A stretch of 64,000 bases of DNA from assembly GCF_027460265.1 (NCBI RefSeq), contig NZ_JAPZBC010000001.1:6085001-6149000 (forward strand), written 5' to 3'. Positions 37,993 to 42,746 of this stretch are shown piece after piece; the first letter of the stretch is position 1; every line of letters begins with the position of its first letter. The notes under the pieces were generated by a model that worked only from the letters and a program-made list of their open reading frames with translations, had not been told where the DNA came from and ran no database searches. Source of the stretch: Streptomyces sp. WMMC940 (GTDB lineage: Bacteria; Actinomycetota; Actinomycetes; Streptomycetales; Streptomycetaceae). The position numbers and the translations under genes are program-made.

Positions 37993-38288
37993 GACACGAC
38001 GCTGGCCCTTCACCCCGCCGAACTCGCCCCCGTGGTGCTGACCACGCACCGCGCCCTCCACTACCGGGGCTTCGCGAGCACCCAGTGGCTGCTGTTCGAG
38101 AAGGCAGGTGAGCTGAAGTGAAGCCCCTGCTCTACACCTACCGGGCGCTGCTCACCGGCATCCCTCTGATGCGCTCCGGTGTGGTCGTCGCCCATCTCCC
38201 CACGCTGCCGGGCGAGATGGCGGCGCCGACCCGGCTGCCCGAGCTGATCGCGGCGAAGACCGAGGCCAACGCCCGCGGCACCGCCGCC
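37993..38288 (+). pseudogene. Nucleotidyltransferase (COG3541/YcgL-like) C-terminal fragment, 5'-truncated and frameshifted
   Basis: Reading 37993-38119 gives [20 protein letters not shown] then [12 protein letters not shown] and a stop; shifting frame at 38118 continues [20 protein letters not shown] and [15 protein letters not shown]. Joined, they match the C-terminal half of the predicted nucleotidyltransferase family, whose usual text is ...TQWRLFEKTGELKPLLYTFR. The break is caused by a tandem duplication of TGAAG (38113-38122), which adds 5 nt. The catalytic N-terminal half is missing: only the glycohydrolase gene lies upstream. The 3' boundary is where similarity stops, near 38288. Confidence 0.82.
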
Positions 38289-38289
38289 C

Positions 38290-38738
38290 GTGGACGCTGT
38301 CGAGGATCTGACGGAGCGGGCTCGGGTACCGGTGCCGATTCCGGGCCCGTCCGGGCCGCCGGGTCCGCAGGGCGAGCCGGGCAAGGCAGGTCCGAGCGGT
38401 TCGCCGGGCGCGTCGGGGGCGCCCGGACCCGCTGTGACGGGGCCGTCCGGCGCGCAGGGTGTGCAGGGCCCGCAGGGTCCGGCCGGCCCGGAAGGGCCCG
38501 CGGGACCGCAGGGCGAGCAGGGGCCGCAGGCGAGCGCGGCCCGGCCGGTCCGCAGGGTCCGCCCGGCGAGGCCGGGCAGGGGCAGGGCTGCCCGTCGGGC
38601 TACTCGTGGCAGCCGCGGCGCGGCGACCCGGATGTACTCGAATGCCGACGCAACGGCGCTACGCCGCCGGACGATCCGCCCGCCGACGGCGGGCTGCTCT
38701 CGACGGGCCTCGATCCGGCCCGCCGTCAGTATGTGTGA
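38290..38738 (+). pseudogene. Collagen-like repeat protein, frameshifted and probably 5'-truncated
   Basis: Frame 1 from 38290 reads [19 protein letters not shown] and further Gly-X-Y triplets until about 38530. Beyond that only frame 2 keeps the pattern ([18 protein letters not shown]), ending [20 protein letters not shown] ... RRQYV and TGA at 38738. Loss of one G in the run CCGCAGGCGAG near 38528-38533 restores continuity. The C-terminal Cys-containing module is of the type found on collagen-like tails of phage and Streptomyces proteins. No ribosome site precedes the GTG at 38290, which directly abuts the nucleotidyltransferase remnant. A real frameshift and a sequencing error cannot be told apart here. 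Confidence 0.72.
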
Positions 38739-38742
38739 CGAC

Positions 38743-38778
38743 GCCCCCTGTCTGGTCCTCCGGGACCGGGCAGGGGGC
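38743..38778 (+). terminator. Hairpin terminator after the collagen-like gene
   Basis: Outer arms GCCCCCTG (38743-38750) and CAGGGGGC (38771-38778), inner arms GGTCC/GGACC, followed by GCTTTCGTCG. It begins 5 nt after the stop codon at 38738. Confidence 0.75.
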
Positions 38779-38880
38779 GCTTTCGTCGTTCCCGGGCGGG
38801 CCCGCGCTCCCGAACCTCGTTCCCTCGCAGGGGACTACGCCCGTACCCTGACCGAAACGGCACAGAGAAGGGGCCCGACC

Positions 38881-40113
38881 GTGGACATCCCCGACGAGCT
38901 GACGATCGGCGAACGAATCCGGCTGCTGCGCGAGTCCCGCGGCATGACCCGCGAGGTACTCGCAAGCATGTGCGGCCGCGGCGTCGACTGGCTAAAGAAG
39001 ATCGAGACCGGCGAGCGTGAGCTGAGGAGCAACACGCTGATCATGCGGCTCGCCGCCGTGCTGCAGATCTCGGACGCCTCGATCATCACCGGCGCCTCGG
39101 GCACGACACAGACCGTCCCGACCGGCCGCCTGCACCATCCCGGAATGCCCGCGATCTGGGATGCAGTGATGAACCGCCGACTCACCTCGTCGAGGCCCGA
39201 CGGCCCGGTCGACGTCGCCGCGCTGCAGGGCCGTGTCGACCAGACGTGGGCGCTGTGGCACAGCAGCGACCACAACCGCACCGAGGTCGCCCGGCTGCTG
39301 CCGAACCTCATCCGCGACGCCGAGGCGGCCGGCCGCGGACTCGACGGCGCCGAGAGGCGGGCCGCGCTCGTCGCACTGTCGGACGTGTACCGGCTCACCG
39401 GGCAGGCGACCGCGTACGTCGCACCCGCCGAACTCGCGTGGGTCGTGGCCGACCGGGCGTTCGCGGCGGCGCAGGACGCCGACGATCCGGCCGCGATCGC
39501 CGCGGCGGCGTGGAACATGGGCAACATCCTGCGGGAGACGTCCTATCCCGAGGAAGCGCTGCGCGTCGTGACCGAGGCCGCCGACCTGATCCGCCCGCAC
39601 CTCGACGCCGCCCCCGAGGACTGGCGCGGCGTGTACGGCGCGCTGCAGTTGCACGCAGCGGTGACCGTCGCCCGCGAGGGCCGGTCCGGCGATGCGTGGC
39701 GCTACTGGGGTGCGGGCGACCAGGTCGCGAAGAGCCTCCCCGCCGCGTACGTCCACCCCAGTACGGTTTTCGGCCGGGCAAATGTCGACTTTCACGCCGT
39801 GTCCGTGGCGACCGATCTGCGCACCTCGGGCAAGGCGTTGACCCTCGCCGACGATCTCGACCCGGACGCGATGCCTTCCGTCGAGCGCCGGGCCCGGCTG
39901 TGGGTCGAGGTCGCCCGCGGACACCTGCAGCGCGGCGACCGCACGGCGGCGCTGCACGTGATGCAGCTCGCCCACAAGATCGGCGCCGAGACGGTCGAGT
40001 TCACCCCGTCGGCCCGGTCGGCGGTCGCCGAGCTGTGGCGTGACGCCCCGCGTGCGTTGCGCCCCGAGGCTGCCCGGCTCGCCGAGCGCATCGGGCTGCG
40101 CGAGGTCGGATAG
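38881..40113 (+). CDS. XRE-type HTH regulator with TPR-like C-terminal domain
   Basis: 410 aa, GTG with AAGGGG 7 nt upstream; TACCCT at 38844 is a possible -10. The HTH lies at residues 6-65 ([39 protein letters not shown]). The rest is an Ala-rich helical-repeat domain (residues about 110-405) with pairs such as [20 protein letters not shown] and [20 protein letters not shown]. This is the layout of Streptomyces regulators that sit next to small-protein cassettes (WhiJ/AbaA-like neighbourhoods) and of peptide-sensing Rgg/PlcR-like proteins. It heads the accessory cassette and probably controls it together with the small XRE at the other end. Confidence 0.88.
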
Positions 40114-40114
40114 A

Positions 40115-40148
40115 GGGACAGCTCGGGACAGGGGGACAGTCCGTCCCC
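40115..40148 (+). promoter_or_regulatory. Triple GGGACAG repeat and short hairpin upstream of the small-protein genes
   Basis: GGGACAG occurs at 40115, 40125 and 40133. The last copy also forms a 6-bp stem GGGGAC/GTCCCC (40132-40137, 40143-40148). It lies just after the regulator stop and about 70 bp upstream of the ATG at 40214; TACTGT (40170-40175) could be the -10 of the cassette genes. It is either a regulator-binding region or an attenuator-like hairpin. Confidence 0.45.
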
Positions 40149-40213
40149 GTTACTCGCCGGTACTCCACTTACTGTGACGGTCCGTAAACGGCCGCACACG
40201 CAAGGGGAGTCCG

Positions 40214-40441
40214 ATGCTCACGCCCTCGCACGCCTCGCCGCGCCCCGGCGTAGCGCCTACCGGCGACCCGAGCACGGGCGAGATACGCGTGCCGCTGGAG
40301 CTCTTCGCCCTCGACCACTCTGTCGGCACCGTCGACCTGGTGCTGTCCCGCGTCGAGGCGGAACACCTGCACGCCGCGCTCACCCGCCAGATGAACCGCG
40401 CCGAGCGCACCCTCGGCTACGTCACCCCGCAGGCGGTGTGA
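40214..40441 (+). CDS. Small cassette protein, 75 aa
   Basis: ATG with GGGGAG 4 nt upstream. No family recognised with confidence. The first 25 residues are Pro/Ser-rich; the rest (VPLELFALDHSVGTVDLVLS, RVEAEHLHAALTRQMNRAER) looks like one strand plus two amphipathic helices. The stop overlaps the next start (ATGA), so the two are coupled. Small proteins of this size often sit between XRE-TPR regulators and their targets in Streptomyces accessory loci. Confidence 0.72.
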   Translation: MLTPSHASPRPGVAPTGDPSTGEIRVPLELFALDHSVGTVDLVLSRVEAEHLHAALTRQMNRAERTLGYVTPQAV

Positions 40442-40656
40442 TGACGCAGCGCACCACCCGCCCCGTAACCCCGCCGCCGATCGGCACGCTGACACAGCGG
40501 CAGCAGCGCGGCGTCGAGTGCGCGTTCTGCGCGATCGTGCTCACCCCCGCGACGGCGGTCAACTTCGAGGGTGAGCATTACTTCCGCCGGGCCGGGATGC
40601 GGTTCCGCTGGTATCCCCGGCACTGCCGGACATGCCAGAAGGGCGGCCGCTCGTGA
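40441..40656 (+). CDS. Small Cys4 (zinc-ribbon-like) cassette protein, 71 aa
   Basis: ATG overlapping the previous stop. It contains VECAFCAIVL (CxxC) and, 30 residues later, HCRTCQKGG (CxxC), a spacing that suggests a structural zinc knuckle, with basic and aromatic residues between (HYFRRAGMRFRWYPRH). The N-terminus is Pro/Thr-rich. It could be a nucleic-acid or partner-binding adaptor. No characterised homologue was recognised. It is followed by about 100 nt before the short peptide gene. Confidence 0.72.
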   Translation: MTQRTTRPVTPPPIGTLTQRQQRGVECAFCAIVLTPATAVNFEGEHYFRRAGMRFRWYPRHCRTCQKGGRS

Positions 40657-40757
40657 GACTCCCCGCCCGCCGGACTACGGCGGACCGTGCGGGCGGGGCA
40701 CACTGCACCACATCCGCCGACCCGCGTACGCCCCCACCACTACAGGAGGTCAGGATC

Positions 40758-40868
40758 CTGAGCGACAGCGGCAAGCACGCCGGGCAGCCGAGCGACAAGC
40801 CGTGGACGCCGCCGCCGACCCCGCCGTCGCCCGACGGCAGCGGTCCGGGCAAGGTCACGGAAGGCTGA
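40758..40868 (+). CDS. Short Pro/Gly-rich peptide with probable CTG start; candidate RiPP precursor
   Basis: 36 aa if read from CTG at 40758. A perfect AGGAGGT (40744-40750) lies 7 nt upstream and no ATG, GTG or TTG is available in this frame at that distance. The peptide is hydrophilic: Asp at positions 3, 13 and 26, a central KPWTPPPTPPSP stretch, then DGSGPGK and an acidic end. Asp26 is followed by Gly, the dipeptide most prone to aspartimide formation. The stop is 4 nt before the methyltransferase gene, whose ribosome site GGAAGG lies in the peptide's last codons, so the two are coupled. Substrate status for the methyltransferase is inference. It could instead be a remnant reading frame. 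Confidence 0.5.
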   Translation: MSDSGKHAGQPSDKPWTPPPTPPSPDGSGPGKVTEG

Positions 40869-40872
40869 CGTC

Positions 40873-41985
40873 GTGACGACTGCTCAACTGGGCGGGCACG
40901 CCGCGCTCGTGCAGAACCTGCACGGGCGCGGGCTGCTCGACGACACATGGCGCCGCGTGTGGGACGCCGTACCGCGCATACCGTTCATCCCCGCCCGCGC
41001 GTGGCGGCAGGACCCCGACGGCTGCACGCTGCTCGCCTCGCCGGCCGAACGGCGCGCGCTCATCCACTCCGACGAGCCGGTCGTGATCCAGCTCGACGAC
41101 GGCGCCGAGAACGGGCCCGGCATCGCGACGTCGTCGAACTCTCAGCCGAGCATGGTCGCCCGGTCGCTCGGGCTGCTGCAGGTCGAGGACGACGCCCGCG
41201 TGCTGGAGATCGGCACCGCATCCGGGTACGTCGCGGCGCTGCTGTCCGAGCGGCTCGGTGAAGAGCGGGTGTTCAGCATCGAGCTCGACCCGGCGCTCGC
41301 CGCGCACGCCGAGGCGGCGCTGCACGCCGCCGACTACCGGCCGAACCTGCGCTGCGGAGACGGCGAGCCGGGATGGCCCGAGGCGGCACCGTTCGACCGG
41401 CTGCTCGCGACCTGCGCACTGCGCCGCGTACCGCAGGCGTACGTCGACCAGGTGCGGCCGGGCGGCCTGATCGTCGCCCCGCTCGCCCGCGAGTTCTGGT
41501 CGGGCGCCCTGGTGCAGTTCACCGTGCAGGGCGACGGGACCGCGACGGGCCGGTTCCATGGCGGCGCGTCGTACATGCCGATGCGCTCGCACCGCGTCGT
41601 CGACGGCGCGCCGGTCGACAGCGGCACGGCCCGCAACCGTCAGACCCGCCTCGGCACGGCCGCGGTGCTGCACCTCGCGTTCGCGCTGTGGGCCGGTACC
41701 CGGCTGCCGGGCGTGCGGCTGTGGCACAGCGACGGGCCGGCGGGCGTGCAGGTGTGGGCGCAGCACCCGGACGGCTCGGCGGCGACCGCGGTCGCGGGTG
41801 ACGTGTGGGAGTACGGGCCGCGCGAGCTGTGGGCGGAGATCGAGCGGGCGCACCGCGACTATGTCGACCTCGGCTCGCCAGCGGCCGAGGGGTTTGGGCT
41901 CACTGCGAGCCCCGAGGGCGAGTACCTGTGGCTGCACGGCCCCGGGAATGTGCTCGCTCCGGTGCTGGAGCCCGCCGGGCGGTAG
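40873..41985 (+). CDS. Protein-L-isoaspartate methyltransferase-like (RiPP-type PIMT) enzyme
   Basis: 370 aa, GTG with GGAAGG 8 nt upstream. Residues about 60-200 are a PCMT fold: the entry IQLDDGAENGPGIATSSNSQ, the PSMVARSLGLLQVEDDARVL helix, SAM motif I VLEIGTASGYVAALL near 110-124, IELDPALAAHAEAAL, and RVPQAYVDQVRPGGLIVAPL. About 170 further residues (WSGALVQFTVQGDGTATGRF onward, ending GEYLWLHGPGNVLAP) form the C-terminal extension typical of PIMT homologues in lanthipeptide, graspetide and FxLD systems, not of housekeeping Pcm (about 210 aa). Those enzymes methylate Asp and drive aspartimide formation. The adjacent coupled short peptide is the obvious substrate candidate. Confidence 0.85.
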   Translation: MTTAQLGGHAALVQNLHGRGLLDDTWRRVWDAVPRIPFIPARAWRQDPDGCTLLASPAERRALIHSDEPVVIQLDDGAENGPGIATSSNSQPSMVARSLGLLQVEDDARVLEIGTASGYVAALLSERLGEERVFSIELDPALAAHAEAALHAADYRPNLRCGDGEPGWPEAAPFDRLLATCALRRVPQAYVDQVRPGGLIVAPLAREFWSGALVQFTVQGDGTATGRFHGGASYMPMRSHRVVDGAPVDSGTARNRQTRLGTAAVLHLAFALWAGTRLPGVRLWHSDGPAGVQVWAQHPDGSAATAVAGDVWEYGPRELWAEIERAHRDYVDLGSPAAEGFGLTASPEGEYLWLHGPGNVLAPVLEPAGR

Positions 41986-42040
41986 GCGCCCCCTCTACGG
42001 CCCCGGCCGGCCCGCGCCCCCCGTCGCGGACCGTCCGGGG

Positions 42041-42277
42041 TCACGTCGTTACGAGATCGGCGATCGTGACGTCGAGGGCGGCGGCTATCCGCAGCAGGGT
42101 GTCGATCCGGGTCGCGACGTGCCCCTGCTCGATCCTGTTGATCGTCTGCCGGTCGGTCCCGGACAGTTCGGCGAGGCGTTCCTGTGAGAGGCGGGCGGCG
42201 CGGCGTAGCTCTCGGATGTGCACGCCGATGGCCCGACGTTGGGTGAGGACCCACTCGGGCTGTTCTGTCGGCGGCAC
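42041..42277 (-). CDS. Small XRE-family HTH protein
   Basis: 78 aa, GTG at 42277. Residues about 18-74 are one Cro/CI-type HTH: GVHIRELRRAARLSQERLAE, LSGTDRQTINRIEQGHVATR, then LLRIAAALDVTIADLV. No other domain. Convergent with the methyltransferase gene (55 bp between stops), closing the accessory cassette on its right side. It is probably a local repressor; its operator is not identified. Confidence 0.88.
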   Translation of the reverse strand: MPPTEQPEWVLTQRRAIGVHIRELRRAARLSQERLAELSGTDRQTINRIEQGHVATRIDTLLRIAAALDVTIADLVTT

Positions 42278-42353
42278 GGATTGGCACTGACCGCCGCATG
42301 ATCATTTGTCTGTATCAGCGACGGGCCGGGGCGCCCCGTACGCGCCCGACCGC

Positions 42354-42746
42354 CTACTGCGGCCGCGACGCGAGCTGGATGAGGTTGCCGCAGGTGTCGT
42401 CGAGGACCGCGGTGGTGACGGGTCCCATCTCCACCGGCTGCTGGGTGAAGCGGACGCCCAGGGCGCTCAGCCGCTCGTACTCCTCCTCCACGTCGTCGAC
42501 GGCGAACTGGGCGAGCGGAATGCCGTCCTCGACGAGCGTGTCGCGGTAGGTCCTGGCGGCCGGGTGGCGGGCGGGCTCCAGGAGGAGCTCGGTGCCGCCG
42601 GGCTCGTCGGGGGAGACGACGGTCAGCCACCGGTCCTGCTCGCCGACCGGGACGTCGTGCTTCTTCACGAAGCCGAGGACCTCGGTGTAGAAGTGCAGGG
42701 CCTTGGCCTGGTCGTCGACGAAGACGCTGGTCAGATGGATCTTCAT
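42354..42746 (-). CDS. VOC-family (glyoxalase/bleomycin-resistance-like) protein
   Basis: 130 aa, ATG at 42746 overlapping the ArsR stop (ATGA). Two beta-alpha-beta-beta-beta modules: KIHLTSVFVDDQAKALHFYT ... LGF, and IPLAQFAVDDVEEEYERLSA ... DDTCGNLIQLASRP. Candidate metal ligands are His3-region, Glu of GGTELLLEP and the late Asn/Gln. Proteins of this sort modify or bind small electrophiles. Co-transcription with an ArsR regulator implies response to a small molecule. Confidence 0.9.
   Translation of the reverse strand: MKIHLTSVFVDDQAKALHFYTEVLGFVKKHDVPVGEQDRWLTVVSPDEPGGTELLLEPARHPAARTYRDTLVEDGIPLAQFAVDDVEEEYERLSALGVRFTQQPVEMGPVTTAVLDDTCGNLIQLASRPQ

Follow-up and report, generated by a model that had tools for sequence, protein, structure and literature searches.

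A Trp-bearing short peptide linked to an aspartyl methyltransferase homologue in Streptomyces sp. WMMC940: a probable type I pamtide operon behind an XRE-TPR regulator

What does a 370-amino-acid (aa) relative of protein isoaspartate methyltransferase (PIMT) act upon when its gene begins 4 nucleotides (nt) behind a frame for a 36-aa peptide, in a cassette headed by an XRE-type regulator with tetratricopeptide repeats (TPR)? The cassette lies in a 64,000-nt stretch of Streptomyces sp. WMMC940 (contig NZ_JAPZBC010000001.1, positions 6,085,001 to 6,149,000), referred to here as the window. For this cassette, a first-pass annotation had proposed a pathway to a ribosomally synthesized and post-translationally modified peptide (RiPP) with the methyltransferase as its sole modifying enzyme. 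That model is supported here by gene linkage, by the near absence of ATP-grasp genes from the neighbourhoods and by the modelled structure of the enzyme; the kind of pathway is not new and corresponds to the pamtide/imiditide class. We consider it very probable that the locus is a type I pamtide (imiditide) operon under XRE-TPR control, in which Asp26 of the peptide would be methylated and converted to aspartimide and isoaspartate (isoAsp).

The assignment is carried primarily by the conserved pairing of the two genes, which is met again in many Streptomyces. A genome scan with a nine-enzyme alignment matched 155 stretches, of which 107 encoded relatives; the analysis retained the 80 best ones. 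Precursors were recognized by a rule that demanded PW and then PD[GD] within 16 residues. By this rule, a precursor was found upstream of the enzyme gene in 70 of the 80 relatives, or in 72 of 82 loci when the window and a Streptomyces anulatus plasmid that carries the pair (L001) are included. Two more were found by eye, one without an ATG or GTG start under the rule (L032) and one with an altered tail (L095), so that the linkage to a short Asp-Gly frame, set beforehand as the test of the proposal, holds in 72 of the 80 relatives. Elsewhere, the precursor frame looks damaged (L057, by internal loss and a frame change; L101, where a stop replaces the Trp) or a different kind of short frame was present (L104 and L106-L109, of which L106, with a frame change, and L109, with an in-frame stop, look damaged), and a single relative (L084) had no short frame. 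A plasmid search with a 48-aa stretch gave no match in spite of L001, probably owing to low-complexity filtering, and nothing is concluded from it. Of the 71 gaps measured between peptide and enzyme, 53 fell between -11 and +14 nt, with a 4-nt overlap, typical of coupled genes, in 19; the remaining 18 hinge on the start chosen by the gene caller.

Such tight coupling, together with the CTG start of the window peptide, could also suggest that the short frame serves the translation of the methyltransferase, as a leader or coupling frame, and that the enzyme repairs or modifies other proteins. The pattern of conservation makes this explanation highly improbable. Codon-position entropy at positions 1/2/3 was 0.26/0.35/0.85 over 53 distinct sequences and 0.23/0.25/1.28 over 35 distinct ones, the variation at third positions being approximately two to six times that at the first and second; by this measure, selection is acting on the peptide at the protein level, with synonymous change. 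Retention of GKHxG, PW and PDG along with such change would be unexpected of a coupling frame, and the phage-type enzymes described below retain a different peptide, which keeps GKHGG or NKHGG and, in most cases, an Asp-Gly near its end.

CTG 40758, preceded by AGGAGG at a distance of 8 nt, is the most likely start of the precursor, as this is where the aligned relatives begin; the mechanical open reading frame is 78 aa long and starts at 40632. Most of the relatives' peptides begin behind a Shine-Dalgarno-like site shortly before GKH, and the 72 rule-found peptides, the window's included, start with ATG (58), GTG (11), CTG (2) or TTG (1). The family core follows the pattern GKHxGxPSDKPWTPP...SPDGSxP, and median precursor length is 43 aa (n = 72). 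Across 67 unique peptides, Pro, Gly and Asp make up 24.4, 11.6 and 8.2% of residues and median net charge is 0; the window peptide has 25.0, 16.7 and 8.3% and a net charge of -1. Residues around PW and PD for which the rule had not asked are conserved as well (Lys in 65, His in 64, Gly in 66 and Pro in 66 of the unique peptides). In the aligned precursors, the N-terminal Lys-His is conserved and the C-terminal end is variable; the L085 peptide has no GKH start. In nine unique peptides, PAPI[KR]PW replaces PSDKPW, and since the corresponding enzymes lie at three places in the tree, the first Asp appears dispensable, whereas the Asp of PDG is retained. Asp26 is thereby the sole acidic residue common to both variants; phage-type precursors match its position with DG, and one locus (L088) carries PDD. 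The window precursor contains no Cys, and hence neither a tetracysteine zinc motif nor a CxxCxGxG pair, and no leader-like or secretion-like segment was seen in its 36 aa by reading.

In the modelled enzyme, both the methyltransferase fold and the C-terminal domain, which the first-pass annotation had noted as an extension, match PIMT 1DL5. Homologues at E<=1e-60 were present in 11 of 150 relatives (own included), which amounts to an accessory distribution. The enzymes of Trp-type loci fall into a single supported group (66 rows), and the distribution of peptide types tracks the enzyme tree (7 changes, compared with 26.1 in shuffles). The best NCBIfam match is TIGR04188, the methyltransferase of ATP-grasp systems (291.3 bits, below the 380-bit cut-off). 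This match, and the XRE-TPR genes that also precede clusters of ATP-grasp and peptide aspartyl O-methyltransferase (PAMT) genes in L144, L151 and L168, would fit orphaned graspetide tailoring, in which a TgmC-type enzyme acts on a peptide first macrocyclized by an ATP-grasp partner encoded elsewhere. We regard this as very unlikely on several grounds. Three ATP-grasp queries (tblastn) matched 1 of 82 neighbourhoods (L098), some of which end at contig ends, in a search that was not extended to the whole genome of the window, and the matching gene lies approximately 5 kb off in a second cluster with its own methyltransferase. Phage-type enzymes score 330-337 on TIGR04188 and no ATP-grasp is named nearby in the annotated phage stretches, so that the score is no marker of graspetides. 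Furthermore, graspetide-type enzymes are set apart in a supported group of their own (long branches being flagged), and the presumed graspetide precursors in L144 and L168, whose ATP-grasp proteins exceed the TIGR04187 cut-off, are 87 aa long. As had been claimed at the outset, no LanB, LanC, radical SAM or ATP-grasp protein was detected beside the cassette by Pfam among eleven flanking window proteins, the relatives having been searched for ATP-grasp alone.

Two loci deserve a description of their own. In L098 (9364-16078), two aspartimide-type clusters stand in tandem: downstream of a PAPIRPW-type pair come an XRE-TPR gene and small frames, and then genes for an ATP-grasp maturase (TIGR04187) and another PAMT. 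In L158 (8948-13001), a 33-aa frame, MGKHGDGKGGEEGDKEQSPKESDGQWNKPVPPK, precedes a gene whose protein opens with a PAMT domain and has at least 1313 aa, its frame continuing up to the end of the stretch.

The control of the operon would fall to the protein encoded at its head. Apart from its HTH_31 helix-turn-helix (HTH) domain, Pfam gave TPR_2 for this regulator at merely 0.016, but its AlphaFold2 (AF2) model (21 sequences, mean pLDDT 90.7, pTM 0.78) forms a TPR-type superhelix in which the helices from approximately residue 105 to 409 match TPR proteins. The first four Foldseek matches to the model were Rap receptors of phage Phi3T, at modest E-values (3e-4 to 6e-4); in VIA, Rap, AimR and NprR appear in a list of general TPR proteins whose best members have higher scores than they do. 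By sequence profile, 98 matches to solved structures were obtained, and in the 60 of them that were listed, almost all were to HTH parts, a kinesin-light-chain-like TPR being the chief exception. The regulator had no second match in its own genome at E<=1e-10, and a homologue at E<=1e-60 was present in 35 of 199 genomes of the genus, its own included.

Gene calls and clustering placed an XRE-TPR homologue of the window's regulator no more than eight genes away from the enzyme gene in 25 of the 80 neighbourhoods in which the latter was called. An HTH profile, applied to loci with enough sequence, recognized an XRE protein in the 4 kb upstream of the enzyme in 40 of 71 cases, and on the downstream side in 11 of 74; the seeds of this profile come partly from the same upstream genes, and it is the contrast, not the absolute number, that constitutes the evidence. 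Seen from the regulator, 7 of 39 XRE-TPR loci (all 40 matches minus the window's own) hold a PAMT gene within the retrieved stretch, always downstream and on the same strand: two of the Trp type (one of them, L140, being the same place as L085), three with ATP-grasp and two of other kinds. Regulators of this type are thus shared by several PAMT peptide systems and by PAMT-less operons.

The 75- and 71-aa proteins have no Pfam or NCBIfam match, and the peptide has no Pfam match either. Homologues of the 75-aa protein lie behind XRE-TPR genes, and the cluster of the 71-aa protein has seven members in seven neighbourhoods, the window included. The intergenic distances had been described as overlaps or very short gaps throughout, which is true of the 1-nt overlap between these two frames and of the 4-nt gap before the methyltransferase, but not of the 100 nt that separate the regulator from the 75-aa frame or the 101 nt between the 71-aa frame and the peptide. 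The cassette is indeed framed by two XRE proteins, as proposed, but homologues of the small XRE protein lie downstream of XRE-TPR genes in L035, L141, L149 and L167, and since the latter three loci have no PAMT, this protein appears to go with the regulator module rather than with the peptide. L141 and L167 combine an XRE-TPR gene with small frames, often with Cys pairs, and with a small XRE gene in convergent orientation, and hold no PAMT; such a module can, to judge from its gene content, stand alone. In a further set of loci (L001, L033, L034, L037, L054, L066, L073 and L080), genes for an XRE protein (C3), a DUF6879-type protein (C4) and a short protein (C6), presumably a WhiJ-like set, precede the pair in place of the XRE-TPR gene.

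Between the regulator gene and the operon lies a candidate operator, which reads GGGACAGTCCGTCCC in the window; L085 has GGGACAGTCTGTCCC at the corresponding position. Its repeat count was reached by 0 of 100 shuffles, but as a simple inverted repeat it is not beyond chance (18 of 60 shuffles). Behind the regulators of 23 loci, inverted repeats were equalled by <=3/60 single-base shuffles in 13, and repeated 7-mers exceeded chance (<=2/100) in only four, the window among them. These results weaken the operator claim, and the repeats could alternatively act in termination. A search of 38600-42400 for a sigma-70-like promoter gave no match.

The proposed sequence of events begins with the XRE-TPR regulator, which would act on a promoter directly downstream of the regulator gene. 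Two small accessory proteins, the precursor and the methyltransferase would then be produced from the operon, and the enzyme would methylate the side chain of Asp26 in SPDG. The resulting ester would form an aspartimide on the amide of the next glycine, which would open mostly to isoAsp. A number of observations weigh against this reading. First, the invariance of PW and PD is partly by construction, as the precursor rule required both; evidence independent of the rule lies in the conservation around them and in the loci judged by eye. Second, the enzyme falls short on TIGR04188, and at the position of the WXXXGXP motif of the C-terminal domain, ascribed to lassimiditide, graspimiditide and imiditide enzymes (PMC13001092), it reads YVDLGSP by eye; a pattern count found YxxxGxP in 45 of 51 rows of PSDKPW-group enzymes, and W in none. 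Since the W is dispensable in LihM, though required in TceM (PMC13001092), we take YxxxGxP as a probable variant rather than an exclusion. Third, the C-terminal charge said to be typical of type I precursors was not seen; acidic and basic residues are described as conserved at both ends in "most" such precursors, which is not universal (PMC10787088, PMC13001092). Finally, for 32 of the 39 XRE-TPR genes sampled, the retrieved stretch does not encode an enzyme of this kind, and regulators are exchangeable, other loci having XRE proteins of other types or none that was found.

A sister of the pair occurs in phages. A related enzyme with 34-35% identity was found by tblastn in 8 of 50,697 records, which represent five named Streptomyces phages: PapayaSalad, Alderaan, Bioscum and Austintatious (L184:4843-6182, L185, L186 and L187) and, by search, Ididsumtinwong; where seen, their taxonomy was Austintatiousvirus. 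Four of these phages were retrieved, and in each the enzyme gene is preceded, at a distance of 8 nt, by a frame of 46-48 aa (annotated longer in two) for a Gly/Ser-rich precursor of the pattern MSGKHGGGSGSGSGGSQQDD...GGNSSDGSGP[SA]K, which has GKHGG and DGSGP in common with Trp-type precursors. This pair sits between a divergent HTH gene and lysis genes. The HTH gene of PapayaSalad encodes 407 aa (HTH_3 1.8e-12, no TPR model match), and its product matched the window's XRE-TPR protein at 27% over the full length in a single comparison (E 3e-11); in the other three phages, it is annotated with 243-269 aa. IMG/VR contains four contigs with the phage-type pair (L188-L191), of which L188 and L190 are probably the same phages as Austintatious and Ididsumtinwong, and L189 and L191 are additions. 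L191 encodes a serine recombinase and a 403-aa XRE protein (HTH_3; weak TPR_MalT); two small genes come next, then those for the precursor and the enzyme and, on the opposite strand, a GH25 endolysin. From the regulator through the two small genes to the enzyme, this gene order is that of the window. At E<=1e-100, 26 of the 295 genomes from the genus of the window also encode a phage-type enzyme, and a related precursor accompanied it in 12 of 12 loci examined, out of 31 places with the enzyme. Among 10 such genomic loci, the phage lysis and tail genes searched for were seen in L223 alone and an XRE-TPR homologue in four. The pairs of the Streptomyces phages apparently represent phage-borne RiPP cassettes.

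A phage origin of the window copy itself was considered and is not supported, as the phage records (12 records) held no match to the window enzyme with >=60% identity. Five IMG/VR contigs hold Trp-type enzymes, four of them with a Trp-type peptide upstream, and in one (L181) the only frame shown ends in a PPPPSPDGGGP stretch; four of the five matches lie within approximately 5 kb of a contig end, where host flank is possible.

The biological function of aspartimide RiPPs is described as an open problem in a 2026 review (PMC13001092), and two possibilities were weighed here. The modified peptide could be a secreted antibiotic or membrane-active compound whose export and immunity are unlinked to the operon, as membrane action has been suggested for strongly positive imiditides (PMC13001092). 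The near-neutral charge and the lack of a visible secretion-like segment argue against this, and among ten flanking proteins and the ADP-ribosylglycohydrolase frame, Pfam detected one transporter, for nicotinamide mononucleotide (NMN) and part of a group linked to nicotinamide adenine dinucleotide (NAD), and no peptidase; we therefore think it rather unlikely. Alternatively, though in our view this is unlikely, the methylated peptide might be a ligand of the XRE-TPR protein in an arbitrium-like or self-timing switch of Streptomyces and their phages. A ribosomal peptide with an aspartimide that hydrolyses over hours would then set the state of the TPR regulator; in phages, where the pair lies between integrase/repressor and lysis genes, the switch would serve the choice between lysis and lysogeny.

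All six reading frames of the cassette were confirmed at the stated positions, Pfam identifying domains in the regulator, the methyltransferase and the small XRE protein, and are collected below with the other features. One flank is NAD-linked (the NMN transporter, an NrtR-type Nudix protein and the ADP-ribosylglycohydrolase), and the opposite one encodes glyoxalase-type, ArsR-type, Rieske and DUF6529 proteins (all by Pfam). A collagen-like Gly-X-Y coding sequence at ~38118-38738 switches frames and looks broken or frame-shifted.

Table 1. Features of the cassette in the window, with the evidence for each.
Feature	Position	Strand	Evidence
XRE-type regulator, C-terminal TPR superhelix, 410 aa	38881..40113	+	HTH_31 4.3e-11; AF2 model
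Candidate operator: GGGACAG at 40115, 40125 and 40133, inverted GTCCC ending at 40147	40115..40147		sequence
75-aa protein, co-occurs with the XRE-TPR regulator subtype of the window	40214..40441	+	homologues in L141, L144
71-aa CxxC...CxxC protein, zinc-ribbon-like by reading	40441..40656	+	cluster C20
AGGAGG ribosome-binding site of the precursor	40744..40749	+	sequence
Precursor peptide, 36 aa, CTG start, core GKHAGQPSDKPWTPPPTPPSPDGSGP	40758..40868	+	homologous frames; codon-position entropy
Asp26 codon in SPDG, predicted modified residue	40833..40835	+	acidic residue kept across variants
PAMT/PIMT homologue with C-terminal domain, predicted peptide aspartyl O-methyltransferase, 370 aa	40873..41985	+	PCMT 1.3e-30
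Small convergent XRE protein, 78 aa	42041..42277	-	HTH_3 1.2e-15; homologues behind XRE-TPR genes

The XRE linkage, the candidate operator and the pairs in temperate phages offer genetically tractable places in which to seek a function; a poorly understood peptide family thereby gains a regulatory and phage context, and its phage members suggest how such cassettes could move. In the literature searched, neither XRE-regulator linkage nor phage carriage of pamtides or imiditides was found, the words XRE, helix-turn-helix, tetratricopeptide, phage and bacteriophage are absent from the main texts of PMC10787088 and PMC13001092, and "KPWTPP" and phrases for phage-encoded RiPPs gave no literature match.

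Comparison with known systems places the locus further. The enzyme has the catalytic domain and S-adenosylmethionine site of housekeeping PIMT (Pcm), but differs from it in its length, its extra C-terminal domain, its accessory distribution and its link to a peptide. Like the RRNPP receptors (Rap, AimR, NprR), whose defining features are taken from PMC10075063, the regulator combines an XRE-type HTH with a helical, TPR receptor-like fold, falls within their size range (250-500 aa with TPR) and has a small peptide gene near it, in chromosomes and phages. Here, however, the 36-48-aa peptide is linked to an enzyme and shows no secretion signal by reading, two genes separate it from the regulator where RRNPP pairs are directly adjacent, and other TPR proteins match the regulator fold equally well or better. 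The graspimiditides (group 13 graspetides, TgmA/B/C) share the enzyme family and, in some loci, the regulator type, but the window locus has a short precursor and no ATP-grasp partner alongside, and its enzyme scores under the cut-off of TgmC (TIGR04188). Type II pamtides, or cysimiditides, are methyltransferase-only as well, but the tetracysteine motif is missing from the window precursor and Cys pairs are instead found in the separate 71-aa protein.

The closest likeness is to type I pamtides. A survey described more than 1,500 clusters of this kind and several patterns of conservation within type I (PMC10787088), and the review counts 1,414 type I members (PMC13001092). For FcaM/FcaA, the reaction was reported and isoAsp shown; SpaM/SpaA gave the same mass shifts and hydrazine trapping, isoAsp not being directly confirmed (PMC10787088). 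Type I precursors have approximately 45 aa, with 17.3% Gly, 16.8% Pro and 10.2% Asp (PMC10787088). The window family likewise has a two-gene unit (in 72 of 80 relatives), a PAMT of more than 300 aa with a 1DL5-like C-terminal domain, a precursor of about this length rich in Gly, Pro and Asp with a conserved Asp near Pro/Gly, and no primary enzyme of a known RiPP class nearby (by Pfam in the window and, in relatives, for ATP-grasp). SpaA-SpaM of S. sparsogenes and NmaA-NmaM of Nonomuraea maritima, compared by their published descriptions, also join a short Pro/Gly/Asp-rich precursor, with a conserved Asp beside Pro/Gly, to a PIMT homologue with a C-terminal domain and no other RiPP enzyme. Unlike the type I pamtides described, the window family has a PSDKPWTPP core with Trp, a near-neutral charge, a variable C-terminus and YxxxGxP. 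The class and its chemistry are already published, and the Trp pattern may already be in the survey's type I list. By its anatomy, as far as sequence tells, the locus is a type I pamtide/imiditide in a Trp-bearing, near-neutral variant.

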